This document shows positions 1 to 10,496 of a DNA stretch of 33,211 bases, piece by piece. Location of the stretch: positions 1 through 33,211 of the forward strand of contig JAQGHS010000774.1 of assembly GCA_028291605.1 (NCBI GenBank), given 5' to 3'. Position 1 is the stretch's first letter; each line of letters begins with the position of its first letter. The notes beneath the pieces were generated by a model. The model was not told the DNA's origin. It searched no databases and saw nothing but the letters and a program-made list of their open reading frames with translations. The position numbers and the translations under genes were made by a program. This DNA is from Planctomycetaceae bacterium (lineage in GTDB: Bacteria > Planctomycetota > Planctomycetia > Planctomycetales > Planctomycetaceae).

Positions 1-34
1 CGCGGCACAACGCGGGTTAACCTGGGCGTTAGGC
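1..34 (+). repeat. Right half of an integron attC-like site (truncated by window start)
   Basis: cgcggcacaacgcgggttaacctgggcGTTAGGC; R' core GTTRRRY at 28-34; same right-half block recurs at 1600-1638, 2221-2249, 3130-3160 and 5351-5387. Confidence 0.75.
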
Positions 35-50
35 AGCTAAGAAAGACTGG

Positions 51-545
51 GTGCTAATGGACGATACCTCGTTTCTTGAACGGATTCGATCATCTCCGGG
101 CGATGCGGTGCTTCTTCGAGAATATGCCGAATGGTTAACAGAACACGACGACCCGCGCGGTGGATATCTGACCGCGGAACTTGATCTTCGTGACACTGAA
201 ATGCGGCTCCTTCAGCTGAGGTCCGCTGTAGGGAAATTCGCTGCTCATCGAGGACTCGATGCCAACTGGCTCGATCTAGTCGTGCCACTCACGGTAAGGT
301 CGCCAATGCGGGGGACGTTCTACGCCGCGCCTGCACCTGATGAGTCTCCATTTGTCAAGATCGGTGACATATGCCATCCGGAAACGATTATCGGCATCAT
401 CGAAGCAATGCACGTGTACAACACGATTCCCGCCGGACATTACGGTGTCGTGTCTGAAGTGCTTGCGTCAAGCGGGTTACCTGTTGCCTACGGTGATCCT
501 CTGGTACAACTAACTCGACCGCCAAGTCTCTTGTCCGGTGGGTGA
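51..545 (+). CDS. Cassette ORF: TIGR02996-like N-terminal domain fused to biotin carboxyl carrier (BCCP)-like domain lacking the biotinylated Lys
   Basis: N-term FLERIRSSPGDAVLLREYAEWLTEHDDPRGGYLTAELDL resembles TIGR02996; C-term RSPMRGTFYAAPAPDESPFVKIGD...IIEAMHVYNTIPAGHYGVVSEVLASSGLPVAYGDPLVQL aligns with BCCP where EAMKMMN is expected. Confidence 0.8.
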   Translation: MLMDDTSFLERIRSSPGDAVLLREYAEWLTEHDDPRGGYLTAELDLRDTEMRLLQLRSAVGKFAAHRGLDANWLDLVVPLTVRSPMRGTFYAAPAPDESPFVKIGDICHPETIIGIIEAMHVYNTIPAGHYGVVSEVLASSGLPVAYGDPLVQLTRPPSLLSGG

Positions 546-552
546 ATGTGCC

Positions 553-655
553 GCCTAACACAATCGGTTCAACCCGACATTGTTCCGCGGTCGGGTCTAA
601 CGTGTTTATCAACATCGCTCGCGTGGCACAACGCGGCTTTACCTGGGCATTAGAT
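553..655 (+). repeat. attC-like recombination site
   Basis: R'' GCCTAAC (553-559), L'' ggttcaacccgac, inner palindrome around ccgcggtc...gctcgcgtggcacaacgcgg, right core ATTAGAT (649-655, deviates from GTTRRRY). Confidence 0.75.
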
Positions 656-669
656 CGCGACTCAACCGA

Positions 670-1185
670 GTGTTCAGCTACGAATATCGCTGTGATCTCT
701 GTGATTATTCCGGTTTTGCGAGCTGGGGAAATCCGGGCTACTACGTCTTTTCCGATGGGGAGCGAATGCCGGCTCGCACCCAGCCAGTGTGGTGCAAGTC
801 GTGTTCCACGATGACCCTTGCAGAAGATATTCCGCCCGTCACATCTTTGGCCGACAGGATTCAGCAACTTCACAGCCGCACGCTTTCCGACGAAGAATTA
901 CAGTTCATCGCCGACCTCAACGACTCTTTGGAAGTGCACATCCAGAGATGTCTGGATCAATGCCATTTGATGATTGCACGATTCCAGGACCGCCACATTC
1001 CCAATCGATGTATCGAGTGCGGAGGTCATGATTTCATGCTACTTCAGACCGACGAGGGAATGATGGTTGACGCGTTTCCTCATCCAGAATGCGCTGGGAT
1101 GATACGGCAGAAGAGTCAGTCGCACTGTATCCCGTCTCACGGTTTCCTGCTGGACGCACAGGGCAATCGCATTCGCGAGACTTAA
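670..1185 (+). CDS. Cassette ORF: zinc-ribbon-like hypothetical protein (GTG start)
   Basis: MFSYEYRCDLCDYSG...WCKSC and later RCIECGGHDF Cys pairs; FmdB-like N-terminal look; lies between two attC-like sites. Confidence 0.6.
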   Translation: MFSYEYRCDLCDYSGFASWGNPGYYVFSDGERMPARTQPVWCKSCSTMTLAEDIPPVTSLADRIQQLHSRTLSDEELQFIADLNDSLEVHIQRCLDQCHLMIARFQDRHIPNRCIECGGHDFMLLQTDEGMMVDAFPHPECAGMIRQKSQSHCIPSHGFLLDAQGNRIRET

Positions 1186-1189
1186 GCGA

Positions 1190-1243
1190 TCGAACGGTTC
1201 AACGCGACGTGTGCCGTGGGCGAGTCTACGGTAAAATCAACAG
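1190..1243 (+). repeat. Decayed attC-like site, left half only
   Basis: tcgaacggttcaacgcgacgtgtgccgtgggcgagtct matches left-arm block; no right half or GTTRRRY follows before the next ORF. Confidence 0.5.
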
Positions 1244-1250
1244 GCAAATA

Positions 1251-1535
1251 ATGCATTTCACCTGCTTCACCACTATCAAGGACTGCGTGTACCTCAAACA
1301 GGTCAGTGCCCTGGACCCGCCCTCGGCTGTGCGGCAAGCAATCGGTTCTTTGCCGTTTCATGATGGTACTGGACCGTTTGACGACGAACTGGAATGGTTG
1401 CAACAGGTCTGTGGAGGCGAAGCCGTGGTGACAATGCATCCCGTTGGGCACTGCAAGAATACATGGCTCTGGCTGGAAGGTTCGCGTTACGAGCCGCAAT
1501 ATCTTACATACGCAGTTCAAACCGATATGAAATAG
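1251..1535 (+). CDS. Cassette ORF: hypothetical protein (94 aa from ATG 1251)
   Basis: MHFTCFTTIKDCVYLKQVSALDPPSAVRQAIG...LEGSRYEPQYLTYAVQTDMK; track start 1089 overlaps the upstream gene and the attC remnant. Confidence 0.5.
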   Translation: MHFTCFTTIKDCVYLKQVSALDPPSAVRQAIGSLPFHDGTGPFDDELEWLQQVCGGEAVVTMHPVGHCKNTWLWLEGSRYEPQYLTYAVQTDMK

Positions 1536-1545
1536 ACGTATCTGT

Positions 1546-1638
1546 GTCTAATGAGCGGTTCAACCCGACGTGTGTTGCGGGGGATTTCGATATATCATGT
1601 CACCTGTGGGCGCACGCGGGTTAACCTGGGCGTTAGGC
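1546..1638 (+). repeat. attC-like recombination site
   Basis: R'' GTCTAAT (1546-1552), gcggttcaacccgacgtgtgttgcggg ... gcgcacgcgggttaacctgggc, R' GTTAGGC (1632-1638). Confidence 0.75.
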
Positions 1639-1649
1639 GGTGTAATGAA

Positions 1650-2171
1650 ATGGCCAAACTGGATTTTAGACGCCGCTTCCTCGCGGGCTTGCCCGCTATT
1701 CCGGCTGAACTCGGACTTCGGCTTGATGAATTCGTCCAATTTGACACGTCCACAGTGCATCTGCTCGACTCGGAAGATGCCACCTTGTTGCTTGCTCAGG
1801 GATTGCCACATGACGCTTCGCCATTTCTGAGCTTTGAAGCGTATTCATCGGAGCAACTTGACAGCAGATTCGAAACATTCGGTGTCTCGAAGTCGTACTT
1901 TCCAATCGGTCACAACGGTTCCGGGGATGTCTTGGCAATTGATCTGAATACTCGTGAGGTAGTTTACTTCAACCACGATCTCGAGGACGCTCGCGTCTTT
2001 GTCAATTCGTCCCTGATTCAGTTCCTGGAATGCCTTTGCATCTTTCAAGAACACCTCACACAAGAAACAATGGCCAGTTGTTTGGCTGATATTGCCACAT
2101 CAGATCATAAGGCTACCGCTCCTGGAGCATTGTGGCACAATGAAGTTGGGAATGAAGTCCTGGACGAATAG
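1650..2171 (+). CDS. Cassette ORF: SUKH-superfamily (SUKH-4-like) immunity protein homolog
   Basis: LLLAQGLPHDASPFLSFEAYSSEQL...KSYFPIGHNGSGDVLAIDLNTREVVYFNHDLEDARVFVNSSLIQFLECL matches the SUKH pattern (iG.dg.Gd.laiD..t..V....hd); ATG 1650 lies just after the R' core. Confidence 0.65.
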   Translation: MAKLDFRRRFLAGLPAIPAELGLRLDEFVQFDTSTVHLLDSEDATLLLAQGLPHDASPFLSFEAYSSEQLDSRFETFGVSKSYFPIGHNGSGDVLAIDLNTREVVYFNHDLEDARVFVNSSLIQFLECLCIFQEHLTQETMASCLADIATSDHKATAPGALWHNEVGNEVLDE

Positions 2172-2190
2172 GACAGCGAAGCAAATCAGT

Positions 2191-2249
2191 GCCTCACAAG
2201 CGGTTCAACATCGCCCGCGAGACAATGCGGGTTAACCTGGGCGTTAGTC
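2191..2249 (+). repeat. Short attC-like site (59 bp)
   Basis: GCCTCAC (2191-2197) aagcggttcaacatcgcccgcgagacaatgcgggttaacctgggc GTTAGTC (2243-2249); cores slightly degenerate. Confidence 0.6.
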
Positions 2250-2273
2250 CTCAACGTTTCTAGAGAGTTTCTT

Positions 2274-2930
2274 ATGCCCGAATACTCGCACACACTGATT
2301 CCCGGCCGGGTCGATTTCGTTCCTGAGCCCAAGCAGGTTGGTTCCTTCCTTTCGTCGCTCGCCACGATCGGCGCGGCGCCCCTGAAACCGGCGTTCGTTG
2401 TCTCGATGCCGTCTGGAAAAGTGCGGACTTTCAAGAACCCCATCTCGGGCATAATGCAGACGTTTGCAGGACGCGAGTCAGAAGAGCTCGACGACCTCAC
2501 CGCTGTGGCGGGCGCGTTGAAACGGCTCGAGGACTACGACGTCTCTGTCGCGGGAAAGGGACCGCCCAAGTTGAAGGCGTTCACCTTCGACTTCAAAGGG
2601 AAATACGACTTTTTTGTTCGATGCTGCCTGCGTCCGGAGGTCGTGTCGATGTCAGACTGGCACGACGAGGTTCCGATCGAGCGGAAGGTCGAAAGTTTTG
2701 GACAGCAATGCAGTCCAAAAGATCGTCTGGGCATCTATCTCAACCCGAACACACTTGAAGTTATCGAAGTACCCAACGCGGGTTGCGCACGATTTTGGAT
2801 TGAGTTCGAATACGGCAATCTCTTTCCGTCAATCAAAGACCGGCTGGATCTGATAGAGCCAGCGATTGCGGAGGTGGCCGAGAAGGAATTCGCTATCAAG
2901 TTCGTTCAAGGATGTCACTGGGGCGCATGA
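2274..2930 (+). CDS. Cassette ORF: hypothetical protein (218 aa)
   Basis: ATG 2274 shortly after attC core; long uninterrupted ORF, family not recognised. Confidence 0.65.
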   Translation: MPEYSHTLIPGRVDFVPEPKQVGSFLSSLATIGAAPLKPAFVVSMPSGKVRTFKNPISGIMQTFAGRESEELDDLTAVAGALKRLEDYDVSVAGKGPPKLKAFTFDFKGKYDFFVRCCLRPEVVSMSDWHDEVPIERKVESFGQQCSPKDRLGIYLNPNTLEVIEVPNAGCARFWIEFEYGNLFPSIKDRLDLIEPAIAEVAEKEFAIKFVQGCHWGA

Positions 2931-3060
2931 GGCCCAAACAAAGTGATGTGCTTGATCGAGCCCCTCGGTGAATTACTGACCTCTTTCAGTCAAGGCCAAC
3001 CGGCTTCGTTACTGGGAGGTCGTTCTGAAATATCGCTGATAAGACTGACACAAAGTAATG

Positions 3061-3160
3061 GCCTAACCAGGAGTTCAACCCGGCATTGTGCCGCGGGCGG
3101 GTTTGAGGTGTAATCAATGTCACTCGCGCGGCACAACGCGGTTTAATTTGGGCGTTAGGC
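3061..3160 (+). repeat. attC-like recombination site (best-preserved, 100 bp)
   Basis: R'' GCCTAAC (3061-3067), gttcaacccggcattgtgccgcgggcgggt ... actcgcgcggcacaacgcggtttaatttgggc, R' GTTAGGC (3154-3160); both cores match consensus. Confidence 0.85.
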
Positions 3161-3469
3161 GTGGGAGGTATTTCGGTGGTTCAGGAAGTTGTCTTTCGCT
3201 TCATGCCGAGTTTGCTTGGCAGTTTCGATGAGCCAGATCCAATTCCGCACCTCGCCGGAGTAATCCTGCTCCAGCACGGTGAGGCACTGGTGGGAAGTTG
3301 GGACGCAGAATGTTGCGGGTTCATCCATCCCTCTAATCAGAATGAATTGGCCGCAAATGCGTTGGAAGCCGTCTTGGCTGCATACCCGGACGTTGATTTA
3401 AAGAGCGACACGTTGCGTATATTCACTTGCCCGCCGATCCTCATCGCACGGTACGACTTTGGCACGTAG
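3161..3469 (+). CDS. Cassette ORF: hypothetical protein (GTG start abutting attC; alternative GTG at 3176)
   Basis: ORF begins immediately after R' core; 102 aa, no family recognised. Confidence 0.5.
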   Translation: MGGISVVQEVVFRFMPSLLGSFDEPDPIPHLAGVILLQHGEALVGSWDAECCGFIHPSNQNELAANALEAVLAAYPDVDLKSDTLRIFTCPPILIARYDFGT

Positions 3470-3483
3470 CCATGGCGAGCGGT

Positions 3484-3580
3484 GCCTGACAAGCGGTTCA
3501 ACCCGACATTGTGCCATGGGCGGGTTTGGGGTGTAATCAATGTCGCTCGCGCGGCACATGCGGTTTAACCGGGAGTGGCA
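3484..3580 (+). repeat. attC-like site with decayed right core
   Basis: GCCTGAC (3484-3490) aagcggttcaacccgacattgtgccatgggcgggt...cgctcgcgcggcacatgcggtttaaccgggagtggca; near-identical to 3061-3160 but GTTAGGC is lost. Confidence 0.7.
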
Positions 3581-3581
3581 G

Positions 3582-4241
3582 ATGTCACGTAACATACTGG
3601 CAATAGTGGTCGTATTTGGGTCCGTCGCATTCGCGGCCGATCTGTCGGAGAAGTGGCAGAAACGACTGGATTCTGCGGATGGCATCTATCAAGCGGCAAA
3701 GATGAAGGCAGACAACGCGCGGTTCTACGCGATGCAAAAGGCGAATGCTGACCGTCTGAAGTTATTGAAGACGGCGCTGGCCGATGCGACTAAAGCGGGG
3801 GATTTCGATGCCGCGACGGCCATCAAGGAACGAGTGGCTGCTGTCGAGACAGATGTCGTCGGATCGCGTCCCAAGCCCAAGAATACTGTCAAGATTGCAG
3901 GACACGAATACGCCCTGGTCGAGGAAAAAGCAACCTGGCATGTCGCCAAACAGATCTGCGAAGAGATGGGAGGGCACCTGGCCACGATCAACTCGCAGGA
4001 TGAGAGCCGTCAGTTACTCGCCCTGTGCAAGACTTTCAGTGTTGATGTATGGATGGGAGAAACAGACGAGAAACAAGAAGGCAAATGGCAAGGCGTTGAT
4101 GGATCGACTCTGATGGCCGACTTCTCTCCAAGTAACGGCGGTGGCTTCGAGCATTACATGTTCTACGAAGATAACCTCGGCAACTGGGATGATGGCAATG
4201 GCGGCGTACGGCTTGCGTTTGTTTGCGAATGGGACAACTGA
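3582..4241 (+). CDS. Cassette ORF: secreted protein with C-terminal C-type-lectin-like domain
   Basis: MSRNILAIVVVFGSVAFA signal peptide; HEYALVEEKATWHVAKQICEEMGGHLATINSQDESRQLLALC...VWMGETDE..EGKWQGVDGS...FEHYMFYEDNLGNWDDGNGGVRLAFVCEWDN; ATG 3582 rather than 3540, which lies inside the attC. Confidence 0.75.
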   Translation: MSRNILAIVVVFGSVAFAADLSEKWQKRLDSADGIYQAAKMKADNARFYAMQKANADRLKLLKTALADATKAGDFDAATAIKERVAAVETDVVGSRPKPKNTVKIAGHEYALVEEKATWHVAKQICEEMGGHLATINSQDESRQLLALCKTFSVDVWMGETDEKQEGKWQGVDGSTLMADFSPSNGGGFEHYMFYEDNLGNWDDGNGGVRLAFVCEWDN

Positions 4242-4385
4242 TGTGGCACCATCCGCGGTGTAGTAGCGCAGCGTGCTAGAACGACTCGTTGGATGTGTAT
4301 TCCGCTTCAGGGGTAAAGGTCCGTCAGGTGGCAATCGAAAAGCAAATTGTCAGCCGTCTGAAATTCACTACAGCATTATTCGAGT

Positions 4386-4646
4386 ATGACTTTGATGAAC
4401 CAATGGATCAGCAAGATTGCAATCGCGTTTGTTGCAGTGGTTGCCGGTTCCATCATCTTGATGTGGTATCGCGTTTCTTATCTTGCAGTAGACCCGGGAC
4501 TTGAACAAGGCATTCAAACCGTCGTGAAACGAAATCCCACTCTCCAGCCTATGCTCGATCGAGCGATGTCCGACGGCAGACTCACGATGGCGGAAGCCAA
4601 TGCGATCATCAACGCAGCCGAGAAGTTAAAAAAAGCGGCGAAGTGA
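4386..4646 (+). CDS. Small membrane-anchored hypothetical protein (86 aa)
   Basis: One N-terminal TM segment (ISKIAIAFVAVVAGSIILMWY) then a soluble helix-rich tail; ATG starts at 4386/4395. Confidence 0.5.
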   Translation: MTLMNQWISKIAIAFVAVVAGSIILMWYRVSYLAVDPGLEQGIQTVVKRNPTLQPMLDRAMSDGRLTMAEANAIINAAEKLKKAAK

Positions 4647-4709
4647 ACTGGCCTGGTTCTTGGCGGCGTTCGCGTACGATGAATCATTCTCATTCTTTGA
4701 TGGCCAAGT

Positions 4710-4741
4710 GCCGCTTCCCTATTTCACCTGGGCGTTAAGGC
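4710..4741 (+). repeat. Decayed attC-like right half
   Basis: ccgcttccctatttcacctgggcGTTAAGGc; retains CCTGGGCGTTA block, left half not recognisable. Confidence 0.45.
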
Positions 4742-4744
4742 ATC

Positions 4745-5293
4745 ATGATTCCAGTCGGCTATCTGGCGATGCATGTGATTCATTGCCCTGAGTCGCTCGA
4801 TGGTGCGAGCGTGGCAGGCGTGTATTCCGTCAGCGGTTGCCTATCCAAGGACTTTGCGGACTACGTCAATTACTGGAAGCACAATGGCTACTGGTTCTTC
4901 GATTCACCGAAGATCATTCAGGACCTCGCGACCGCGAACGGGATTGATCTGACGGGAACGACACTGTTTTTCTACGAACTCTATGAGTTGCAATTTGATG
5001 ACGCCGTAAACACATGGACGCCGATTTCTTCGGATCCATCATTTCCGACGCAGATTGTGCTCCCCAACTGCAAAACACTGGAAGGCTTTGACGTCGTAAC
5101 ATATTCTTGTGGAACGACGGCCGAATGTTCCCCGTTGTCCTGCAATGCATTGGCGACGGAGTTAGAGTCAAATCAACATTGCCTGATGGAGTCGTTCGAA
5201 CGCGCGAAGCAGTTAGTTGAAGGCGGCAAATTCCGGAACTCCGAACCAGGACCCTTTCGGGTCATTTCCGTGTATTCGACAATATGGCCGTAG
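4745..5293 (+). CDS. Cassette ORF: hypothetical protein (182 aa)
   Basis: ATG 4745 directly after attC right half; uninterrupted ORF ending at the next attC-like element. Confidence 0.65.
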   Translation: MIPVGYLAMHVIHCPESLDGASVAGVYSVSGCLSKDFADYVNYWKHNGYWFFDSPKIIQDLATANGIDLTGTTLFFYELYELQFDDAVNTWTPISSDPSFPTQIVLPNCKTLEGFDVVTYSCGTTAECSPLSCNALATELESNQHCLMESFERAKQLVEGGKFRNSEPGPFRVISVYSTIWP

Positions 5294-5294
5294 C

Positions 5295-5387
5295 AAGTGG
5301 TTCAACCCTGACGTGTGCCGCAGTCGGGTTTGGGGTGTAATTCAACATCACTCGCGCGGCACGGGTTAAATAACTTGGGCGTTAGGC
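5295..5387 (+). repeat. attC-like recombination site
   Basis: gcaagtggttcaaccctgacgtgtgccgcagtcgggtttggggtgtaattcaacatcactcgcgcggcacgggttaaataacttgggc GTTAGGC (5381-5387); R'' not well conserved. Confidence 0.7.
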
Positions 5388-5390
5388 GGA

Positions 5391-6110
5391 GTGGAGGATG
5401 ACAGAGTGGGTGCCAGTGGATGGACATATTTTACTCCCTATCAACCAGAGGCGTCTGCTGCATTGCAGGAGTTGCAACGCCAGGTATTTGCTTCTGGGCA
5501 ATATAAACGGCCGCAAACGGGCCCGGAGCTACTCAATCAAATCCAGCAATACAATCCTGCGGAAATCCACCGTAAAACGGCCGAGAGTTACCGACGTCTG
5601 CCTGGTGCTGGCGACTCGGCCGAGATTCAAACGATGATTGCTCGGTGCGAGCAAATGGCGGCGGCCGCAGAAGCCATTTGGCCTCGGACCTGCCGCCTGG
5701 TTGAAGCAATGAAAACCGGCGACACAAGCCAGTTGGCTGCCGACGAACTCCGCGAATTCAGCCTGTACCCGCAACTTCTCAAGCTATCTCCTAGTTTGAG
5801 CCGTAAGCATCGCAAACCGCATCGTCCGGCGAAGAGTATCGAAGAACTGCGTGAACAAGCAGGAGAGGATGGAACGCACTCGATACTCGATATCCTTCGG
5901 ATCTCCAAGAAGAGAAACCATGCGACAGCGTCCCCTCTGTCAGAGAAACTTCTCAATCAACATTTCGGCACAGTCGAGCCCAGTCGGGAGCAGGTCGAAA
6001 CGAATGACTTGACCTTCGCGGAAGCGCTCAACTGGCAGGCGGTGTTCTTCGCTGTATTTCATGCTGGCGAGCCAGCCGAATGGGCTTTTATAGGCAGTTC
6101 CGGAGACTGA
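5391..6110 (+). CDS. Cassette ORF: hypothetical protein (239 aa; GTG start, alternative in-frame GTG at 5406)
   Basis: Starts 3 nt after the R' core; ASGWTYFTPYQPEASAALQELQRQVFASGQY...; no recognisable attC downstream. Confidence 0.65.
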   Translation: MEDDRVGASGWTYFTPYQPEASAALQELQRQVFASGQYKRPQTGPELLNQIQQYNPAEIHRKTAESYRRLPGAGDSAEIQTMIARCEQMAAAAEAIWPRTCRLVEAMKTGDTSQLAADELREFSLYPQLLKLSPSLSRKHRKPHRPAKSIEELREQAGEDGTHSILDILRISKKRNHATASPLSEKLLNQHFGTVEPSREQVETNDLTFAEALNWQAVFFAVFHAGEPAEWAFIGSSGD

Positions 6111-6953: not shown

Positions 6954-7091
6954 TAGAACTTTCCAAATCAGGGTCGATTATTGAGGATAACGTGATTGTC
7001 CCTACCCCCAAACTTCCCGTCGAGTGTAGTGCAAAAACGCGGGAACCACTTCCGCAAGGAGGCGTAGGTTCTGAGTACGTCACGCTCGGCC

Positions 7092-8610: not shown

Positions 8611-8689
8611 GTGAGCGGCACGGCGCTAGCCGCCGGTTCTTCCAGGGAAATCGACGCACAGAACCGGTGGCTAGCGCCATTCCGCTCAC
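8611..8689. repeat. Long intergenic inverted repeat (family A)
   Basis: gtgagcggcacggcgctagccgccggttct (8611-8640) vs agaaccggtggctagcgccattccgctcac (8660-8689), imperfect 30-bp arms. Confidence 0.85.
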
Positions 8690-8813
8690 AGAGTATGGTC
8701 TCACGTTTTGGTTCGTGCGGCGACGTCAAACGGACGGGGAAAATGCGGAAAATATCGGCCAATTCACCAATCGGTTGATTCTGTGGATCGCTCGCGGTAG
8801 ACTTCGTCCTTGA

Positions 8814-8988
8814 AATGGGTGCTTGCCTGAATCGTGAGATTTTGGCGAGAGAATAGGGAAGACGGTTAGATTCCGTCGCGGTCCCGCCGCTGTAACCGGG
8901 GACGAACGCTACATAAACCACTTCAGGCAACTGCCTGCGGGAAGGCGTAGCTAGTAGGCCGATCCGGGAGCCAGAAGACCTGCCCATT
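8814..8988 (+). promoter_or_regulatory. Cobalamin (B12) riboswitch
   Basis: agggaagacggttagattccgtcgcggtcccgccgctgtaaccgggg...ccactt...gcgggaaggcg...ccgggagccagaagacctgcc, including a B12-box-like AGCCAGAAGACCTGCC; candidate P1 AATGGG (8814-8819)/CCCATT (8983-8988). Confidence 0.93.
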
Positions 8989-9031
8989 GTCACTGTTGCG
9001 AAGAGTCGTGCTCGGTTGAGGTACGGACGCA

Positions 9032-9204: not shown

Positions 9205-10314
9205 ATGAAAAATGGTCGCTTGAGCTGGTTGTGTTTGGTCTCTGTTCATGGTCGTCAAACGCAGGGATCAATAGATTGCAAGACGTCGCTCGACACTGTA
9301 AGTGGGACGAAACCGCGTCGCGGTACGACTCCTTCTCGCGGGTTCACTCTGATTGAACTGCTGGTGGTGATTGCGATTATCGCCGTGCTGATTGCCCTGT
9401 TACTGCCGGCCGTGCAGCAGGCGCGCGAGGCGGTCCGCCGTGTCCAATGCAAGAATCATCTGAAACAGATTGGATTGGCGTTACACAGTTATGAGTCGAC
9501 GCATCGCTTCTGGCCTGAGCAGTCGGGTACGCCGCAACCGGGGCCGCTTTACAAGATGCCGATGAGCAGTTGGATGACGTCGGTCCTGCCCTATCTGGAT
9601 CAGGCCAATCTTTATCGGGGATATGATTGGAGTCGCGACTGGCACGACGTTGCCAATCTGGCCGTCGTCACGATGAACGTGCCTGTCTATAATTGCCCCT
9701 CCGCACCGATTCGTGAGGGGTTTGAGTATACAGTTCTGGTCACTTATGCAGACCCCGTCACCACGACGGCGACATTGGGGACACGCACGTTTTATTACGG
9801 CGCCACGACCGATTACACAAATGTGGGCGGTATTGGCACGAATTTGAACAATACTCTGACACAAAAAGTCACGAATCCGGGGACTAGCGGCATCTTAATG
9901 TCGAACGCGGTGTCGTTGGCGGCAGTCACCGATGGCCTGTCCAATACGATTCTTGTCGCTGAGTGTGCTGGCCGGCCCAATCTGTACCAACGCGGAATGC
10001 TGGTTCCAGACGGGACGACTCCGAAGACCTGGAGTGGTTCGTCGACAAAACCGTTTCCCGTGGGCGGAGTCTGGGCGAGCCATAACAAAGGGTTCTTGAT
10101 CGATGGGGCTCTGGCAAACGGTTACACTACCAGTACCCCCGGTGTGGCCTCCGTGAACTTTTCGAACGACAACGAGATCTACGCCTTCCATCCCGGGGGA
10201 GCGAATGTGTTGATGGCCGATGGATCGGTGCGCCTGGTCGCGGAATCAATGTCTCTGCAAGTGCTGTGTGCGATGGCCTCCCGTGCGGGCGGCGAAGTCG
10301 TGTCAATGGATTAA
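9205..10314 (+). CDS. DUF1559 domain protein with type II/IV prepilin-like N-terminal methylation motif
   Basis: SRGFTLIELLVVIAIIAVLIALLLPAVQQAREAVRRVQCKNHLKQIGLALHSYES ... IYAFHPGGANVLMADGSVRLV; gaggaaa RBS before ATG 9205. Confidence 0.92.
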   Translation: MKNGRLSWLCLVSVHGRQTQGSIDCKTSLDTVSGTKPRRGTTPSRGFTLIELLVVIAIIAVLIALLLPAVQQAREAVRRVQCKNHLKQIGLALHSYESTHRFWPEQSGTPQPGPLYKMPMSSWMTSVLPYLDQANLYRGYDWSRDWHDVANLAVVTMNVPVYNCPSAPIREGFEYTVLVTYADPVTTTATLGTRTFYYGATTDYTNVGGIGTNLNNTLTQKVTNPGTSGILMSNAVSLAAVTDGLSNTILVAECAGRPNLYQRGMLVPDGTTPKTWSGSSTKPFPVGGVWASHNKGFLIDGALANGYTTSTPGVASVNFSNDNEIYAFHPGGANVLMADGSVRLVAESMSLQVLCAMASRAGGEVVSMD

Positions 10315-10341
10315 GAACCCCTGACAAAACCGGTTGTGGGA

Positions 10342-10377
10342 AGTTCAGAACCGCAAACTTTCAAGCGGTTCTGAACT
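10342..10377 (+). terminator. Perfect 13-bp hairpin downstream of DUF1559 gene (possible terminator, no clear U-tract)
   Basis: AGTTCAGAACCGC (10342-10354), 10-nt loop, GCGGTTCTGAACT (10365-10377). Confidence 0.6.
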
Positions 10378-10496
10378 GATGCAGAGGTTTTGTTAGAGTT
10401 TATAAGATAGAAAACCGATCCGCGCCGCATGACGTTGCCTCGCAATCTGCGATGTCAGGTCTCGACTCTGGACCATGTGAAAGCAGGCTGACTCAG

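Follow-up and report, generated by a model that had tools for sequence, protein, structure and literature searches.

The first 5390 or so positions (perhaps 6110) of the stretch of DNA analysed here, hereafter the window, very probably constitute a planctomycete chromosomal integron cassette array, whereby this confidence applies to the assignment as an integron cassette array and not to its continuity with the integrase-bearing contig C277. The window (positions 1-33211) is contig C740 of a planctomycete draft genome of 9.10 Mb, which is split into 1049 contigs and is 87% complete. An integron-type attC array in a planctomycete had been proposed in an initial annotation made from the sequence alone, and this proposal was substantiated by seven sites detected with covariance models as well as by a matching integrase encoded in the same genome; the coordinates and the layout of open reading frames (ORFs) given at that time proved to be right.

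The attC sites of the window

For attC detection two covariance models were used, the first (R1) based on the bottom strands of six sites, five from the window and one from C277, and the second (R2) on 79 attC sites. The unfiltered R1 search of the window returned six sites scoring between 107.5 and 27.9 bits, these scores being in part a matter of construction, as five of these sites belonged to the model. With R2 seven sites were identified within positions 1-5390 (E 1e-28 to 3e-6), the addition being a site at 1-34 (31.9 bits), which is truncated by the contig start. In the rest of the 33 kb window R1 revealed nothing above 15 bits except the opposite strands of the same palindromes. All detected sites lie in a single orientation on the forward strand, in agreement with the shared orientation noted initially, and they separate unrelated ORFs of the same strand.

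Contig C740 begins inside an attC repeat, of which the 3' part (L' arm and GTTAGGC right core) is retained at positions 1-34. The site at 553-655 (R1 89.8 bits) possesses an insertion beside its left core and a right core changed to ATTAGAT, while that at 1546-1638 (74.1 bits) has an intact right core and a decayed left core. At 2191-2249 a short site is found the central part of which is missing (R1 27.9 bits, R2 32.9 bits), followed by the best preserved site of the window at 3061-3160 (R1 107.5 bits), in which both cores are intact. The right core is lost from the site at 3484-3583 (90.1 bits), and the last site at 5288-5387 (84.5 bits) combines an intact right core with a lost left core. 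Next to these seven sites two remnants are visible, neither of them significant: the left half of a decayed site at 1185-1274 (GGTTCAACGCGACGTGTGCCG; R1 12.8 bits with E 0.21, which by itself is not significant) and a right end at about 4707-4741 (TTCACCTGGGCGTTAAGGC), which was recognised by sequence inspection and missed by the model. Sites and remnants taken together account for the "at least nine copies or partial copies" counted initially. The attC layout with both cores, ascribed at that time to 3061-3160 and 1546-1638, was found for the former, but the left core of the latter reads GTCTAAT and does not conform to RYYYAAC.

The cassette ORFs

All ORFs between the sites are encoded on the forward strand, as derived from the ORF list and a Pfam scan. 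ORF 1 (51-545) combines a TIGR02996-like N-terminus, the match of which remains below the cut-off (22.8 versus 29.05 bits), with a BCCP-like biotin/lipoyl carrier domain (PF00364, E 3.2e-12). Without a Pfam family are ORF 2 (670-1185, 171 aa), ORF 3 (1251-1535, about 94 aa), ORF 6 (3161-3469, 102 aa), the start codon of which abuts the preceding attC site, and ORF 8 (4745-5293, 182 aa). ORF 4 (1650-2171) encodes a SUKH-family (SMI1/KNR4-like) protein (PF14435, E 3.7e-9), and ORF 7 (3582-4241) combines an N-terminal hydrophobic stretch with a C-type lectin domain (PF00059, E 6.1e-14). A further small ORF (4386-4646, 86 aa) with a hydrophobic stretch is a probable cassette ORF. The last attC site is followed on its 3' side by ORF 9 (5391-6110, 239 aa), which is either the last cassette, having lost its attC site, or the first chromosomal gene; downstream of it no attC match was obtained in the window with R1.

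For ORF 5 (2274-2930, 218 aa) searches of family genomes revealed patchy homologues, the ORF being found in 4 of 150 genomes, the source genome included. In the congener G006 a homologous fragment was identified, and an attC-like site (30 bits) lies a few bases past its stop codon. No match was obtained in the congeners G005 and G007, and around the copy of genome G086 (63% identical) no attC site of this model was found. This patchy distribution fits cassette movement, without proving it.

The integrase locus and the genome-wide attC set

That no integrase was in view, as stated initially, holds true for C740 but not for the genome, as an intact integron integrase resides on contig C277 (1223-2212). 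As C740 is one contig of a 1049-contig draft and the integrase gene (intI) lies on C277, the absence of an integrase from the window is considered an assembly effect. The encoded 337-aa tyrosine recombinase scores 416 bits with the integron integrase model TIGR02249 (cut-off 265), among solved structures it is closest to the integron integrase 2A3V (IntI4; aligned residues 5-337, E 2.2e-84), and both TIGR02249 and the 2A3V alignment document the IntI-specific insert. To the right of the divergent intI a putative Pc promoter (TTGACA-N17-TAGCAT; 0.2 matches expected from shuffles) is located, and a GTTAGGC motif resembling an attI core lies between the intI side and nine attC sites. The latter belong to the attC family of the window and have both cores intact throughout; the first of them, whose arms are very similar to those of the window sites, folds as bottom strand with -30 kcal/mol (z -5.9). 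By eye, similarity around GTAGTGCAAAAGCGCGGGAACCAC was also noticed between window positions 7020-7080, beside a CobB-like gene, and L001 1020-1110, beside the C277 intI.

Contigs C506 and C764 hold integrase-like matches that might have represented additional IntI proteins; these were rejected, since both score below the TIGR02249 cut-off. Each adjoins an ORF whose sequence suggests an IS91-type transposase, and for both reasons the two were taken as IS-associated recombinases; on C764 this pair adjoins three intact attC sites. Tyrosine recombinase ORFs beside ORFs resembling IS91-family transposases were observed at L040 1894-4195 and L058 22-1562.

About 97 further attC sites were found elsewhere in the genome by the same two models; a lack of covariance-model hits, named initially as evidence against an array, was not observed. 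The total amounts to at least about 104 sites on 19 of the 1049 contigs, a lower bound obtained from R2 matches with E <= 0.01 on the contigs examined, after removal of opposite-strand duplicates and of one partial match on C569. The orientation of the sites is uniform within each contig. Adjacent sites enclose 85 cassettes with a median spacing of 632 bp, and in 80 of these the longest ORF is carried by the array strand. In the alignment of 79 sites 90.6% of the cells are paired, with covariation only slightly above that of shuffles. A scan of 80 cassette proteins yielded few Pfam matches, the 25 families listed including DUF1559, SUKH, glyoxalase, YcxB, TPR, ankyrin, immunity protein 22, C-type lectin and biotin/lipoyl domains; the glyoxalase/bleomycin-type match is one to a broad superfamily, and no drug-resistance gene is claimed.

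It might be argued that the repeats are dispersed palindromic elements of the REP or MITE type which lie between small genes by chance, as such elements do exist in the genome (GTGAGCGGCAYGGCGCTAGCC, for example, has 164 matches). This reading is contradicted by the clustering and orientation of the sites, since repeats occurring throughout the genome, which the initial annotation had named as evidence against an array, were not what was found: the sites keep to about 19 of 1049 contigs with one orientation each. Moreover, their spacing is cassette-sized with ORFs on a single strand, and they lie next to an integron integrase and show, besides R and L boxes, the integron core GTTRRRY, so that a chance arrangement of such elements is hardly credible.

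The remainder of the window and related genomes

Outside the array, window positions 8611-8689 hold a palindromic, REP-like dispersed repeat (GTGAGCGGCACGGCGCTAGCC ... inverted copy), the half-site of which has 164 matches in the source genome (79 forward, 85 reverse; at most one mismatch), the reversed control pattern having none. A repeat of about 100 bp (10309-10406) recurs with up to 96% identity at many places in the genome and in the congeners G006 and G007. At 8800-9001 a cobalamin riboswitch (106.5 bits) was identified among B12-related genes, preceding a DUF1559 gene; it was the sole match of the Rfam search, in which attC was not matched. In congeners a DNA search with the flank of this cobalamin locus matched nothing beyond short pieces of dispersed or conserved sequence, and a search of a plasmid collection found no similar DNA.

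That C740 was mis-binned and originates from another integron-bearing planctomycete was considered in view of the CobB-like gene of the window, which was found in no other family genome (61 searched, none of the other 60 having it). This origin is improbable, given that the dispersed repeats of the window recur in the same genome and in congeners with identities of up to 96%, and that the attC consensus of the window is common to the C277 sites.

Among 59 genomes searched, 17 (the source genome included) encode an integrase above the TIGR02249 cut-off. The attC type of the window also occurs in the congeners G005, G006 and G007 and is abundant in G038, which represents another genus of the same family. 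Integrase and array were found on a single contig in G007 (intI at C2:88253-89242, attC sites at C2:75249-86046) and in G038 (intI at C28:43132-44079, with more than 20 attC sites to its left).

Site decay and the organisation of the array

Both consensus cores are kept by all nine sites of C277, by 3/3 on C764, 2/2 on C705 and 6/8 on C790; the corresponding figures are 1/7 for the window, where only 3061-3160 qualifies, 0/12 for C366 and 0/6 for C886. Bottom-strand DNA folding was clearly better than that of shuffles for window positions 3060-3159 (z -3.2) and 5290-5387 (z -2.2) only, those folds starting at 553, 1543, 2189 and 3484 not being clearly better. Folding of the three segments highlighted initially hence supported 3061-3160, but neither 553-655 (z -1.4) nor 1546-1638 rose clearly above shuffles. 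The folds of the C277 site and of 3060-3159 agree with the attC structure of paired R and L boxes and an extrahelical base, those of several decayed window sites do not. As both cores persist in one of seven sites and most folds do not exceed shuffles, many window sites are probably not recombinogenic at present. The decay of most window sites points to the window being either an old distal array end or a separate CALIN (an attC cluster that has no integrase of its own). For contigs other than C277 the distance from the integrase is deduced, as C277 is the only one known to adjoin intI.

According to the established integron mechanism, the C277 integrase would bind attC sites as folded bottom strands, excise the cassettes in circular form and reinsert them at attI, adjoining the Pc promoter. 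As reinsertion takes place beside Pc, fresh cassettes would remain near the integrase, and old ones would drift outwards and lose their sites. Window positions 1 to about 5390 (perhaps 6110) would be the far end, already in decay, of a chromosomal integron cassette array, which we infer to be physically joined to C277 and to offer its attC sites to the C277 integrase.

As a refinement of this reading, the chances are even that the window array is a separate CALIN belonging to the same integron system, which the C277 integrase would serve in trans or which was abandoned; physical continuity with C277 has about the same likelihood. Both alternatives named in the initial annotation, a sedentary integron extending upstream and a CALIN, remain live, with the same attC type adjoining the C277 integrase. 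The genome contains several independent array ends, and in the congener G007 attC clusters are likewise found on contigs without an integrase match (e.g., C3:132927-144245). The stronger decay of the window sites as compared to those of C277 would fit a CALIN, but the distal ends of a single large array would be decayed too. Contig C740 carries attC sites without an integrase, as a CALIN does, but its start falls inside an attC site, and contig breaks at many array-piece ends leave room for one long array. Several array blocks border ordinary-looking genes, namely HNH and CobB-like genes in the window, glycoside hydrolase, ion-channel and ATP-synthase alpha/beta genes on C366, hydrolase and transporter genes on C735, and amidohydrolase and DUF1501 genes on C6; together with the IS91-like pair on C764 this suggests that either one array was broken by insertions or several arrays exist. 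It is conceivable, though somewhat short of an even chance, that one planctomycete integrase maintains several physically separate arrays in one chromosome, that is, a complete integron accompanied by several CALINs that share its attC type, the extent of site decay reflecting how old each block is.

Known systems and significance

The system resembles the superintegron of Vibrio cholerae in that intI is divergent from the array, an attI-like core and a Pc-like promoter are present, and more than 100 sites bound cassettes mostly of unknown function. It differs in its planctomycete host, in the scattering of its sites among several array blocks of a draft genome, in the marked site decay outside the integrase contig, and in that no toxin-antitoxin family is among the Pfam matches listed. 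With a CALIN the window shares attC sites and cassettes without an integrase on the contig; it departs from one in that an integrase with the matching attC type exists in the same genome and that the contig starts inside a site. By phylum and kind of element it compares to the planctomycete integrons, for which the Rhodopirellula baltica intI and a Planctomycetes attC model serve as examples (PMC8352920).

Reports of integrons in Planctomycetes go back to at least 2008 (PMC2426708), and R. baltica was one of the species in which integrase control was studied (PMC3108266). An attC covariance model for Planctomycetes appeared in Commun Biol in 2021 (PMC8352920). As integrons of this phylum are already in the literature, the window element is of a familiar kind. 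The large chromosomal integrons of V. cholerae and V. vulnificus reach 179 and 301 cassettes, respectively (PMC11023631). The array described here is notable for its size and for its uneven site decay, intact sites adjoining the integrase and worn ones residing on other contigs. The functions of its cassettes are mostly unknown, those recognised comprising SUKH-type, immunity-22-like, glyoxalase-like, ankyrin and lectin domains. With at least about 104 attC sites, a large cassette reservoir is added, in a planctomycete host far from the Vibrio models.
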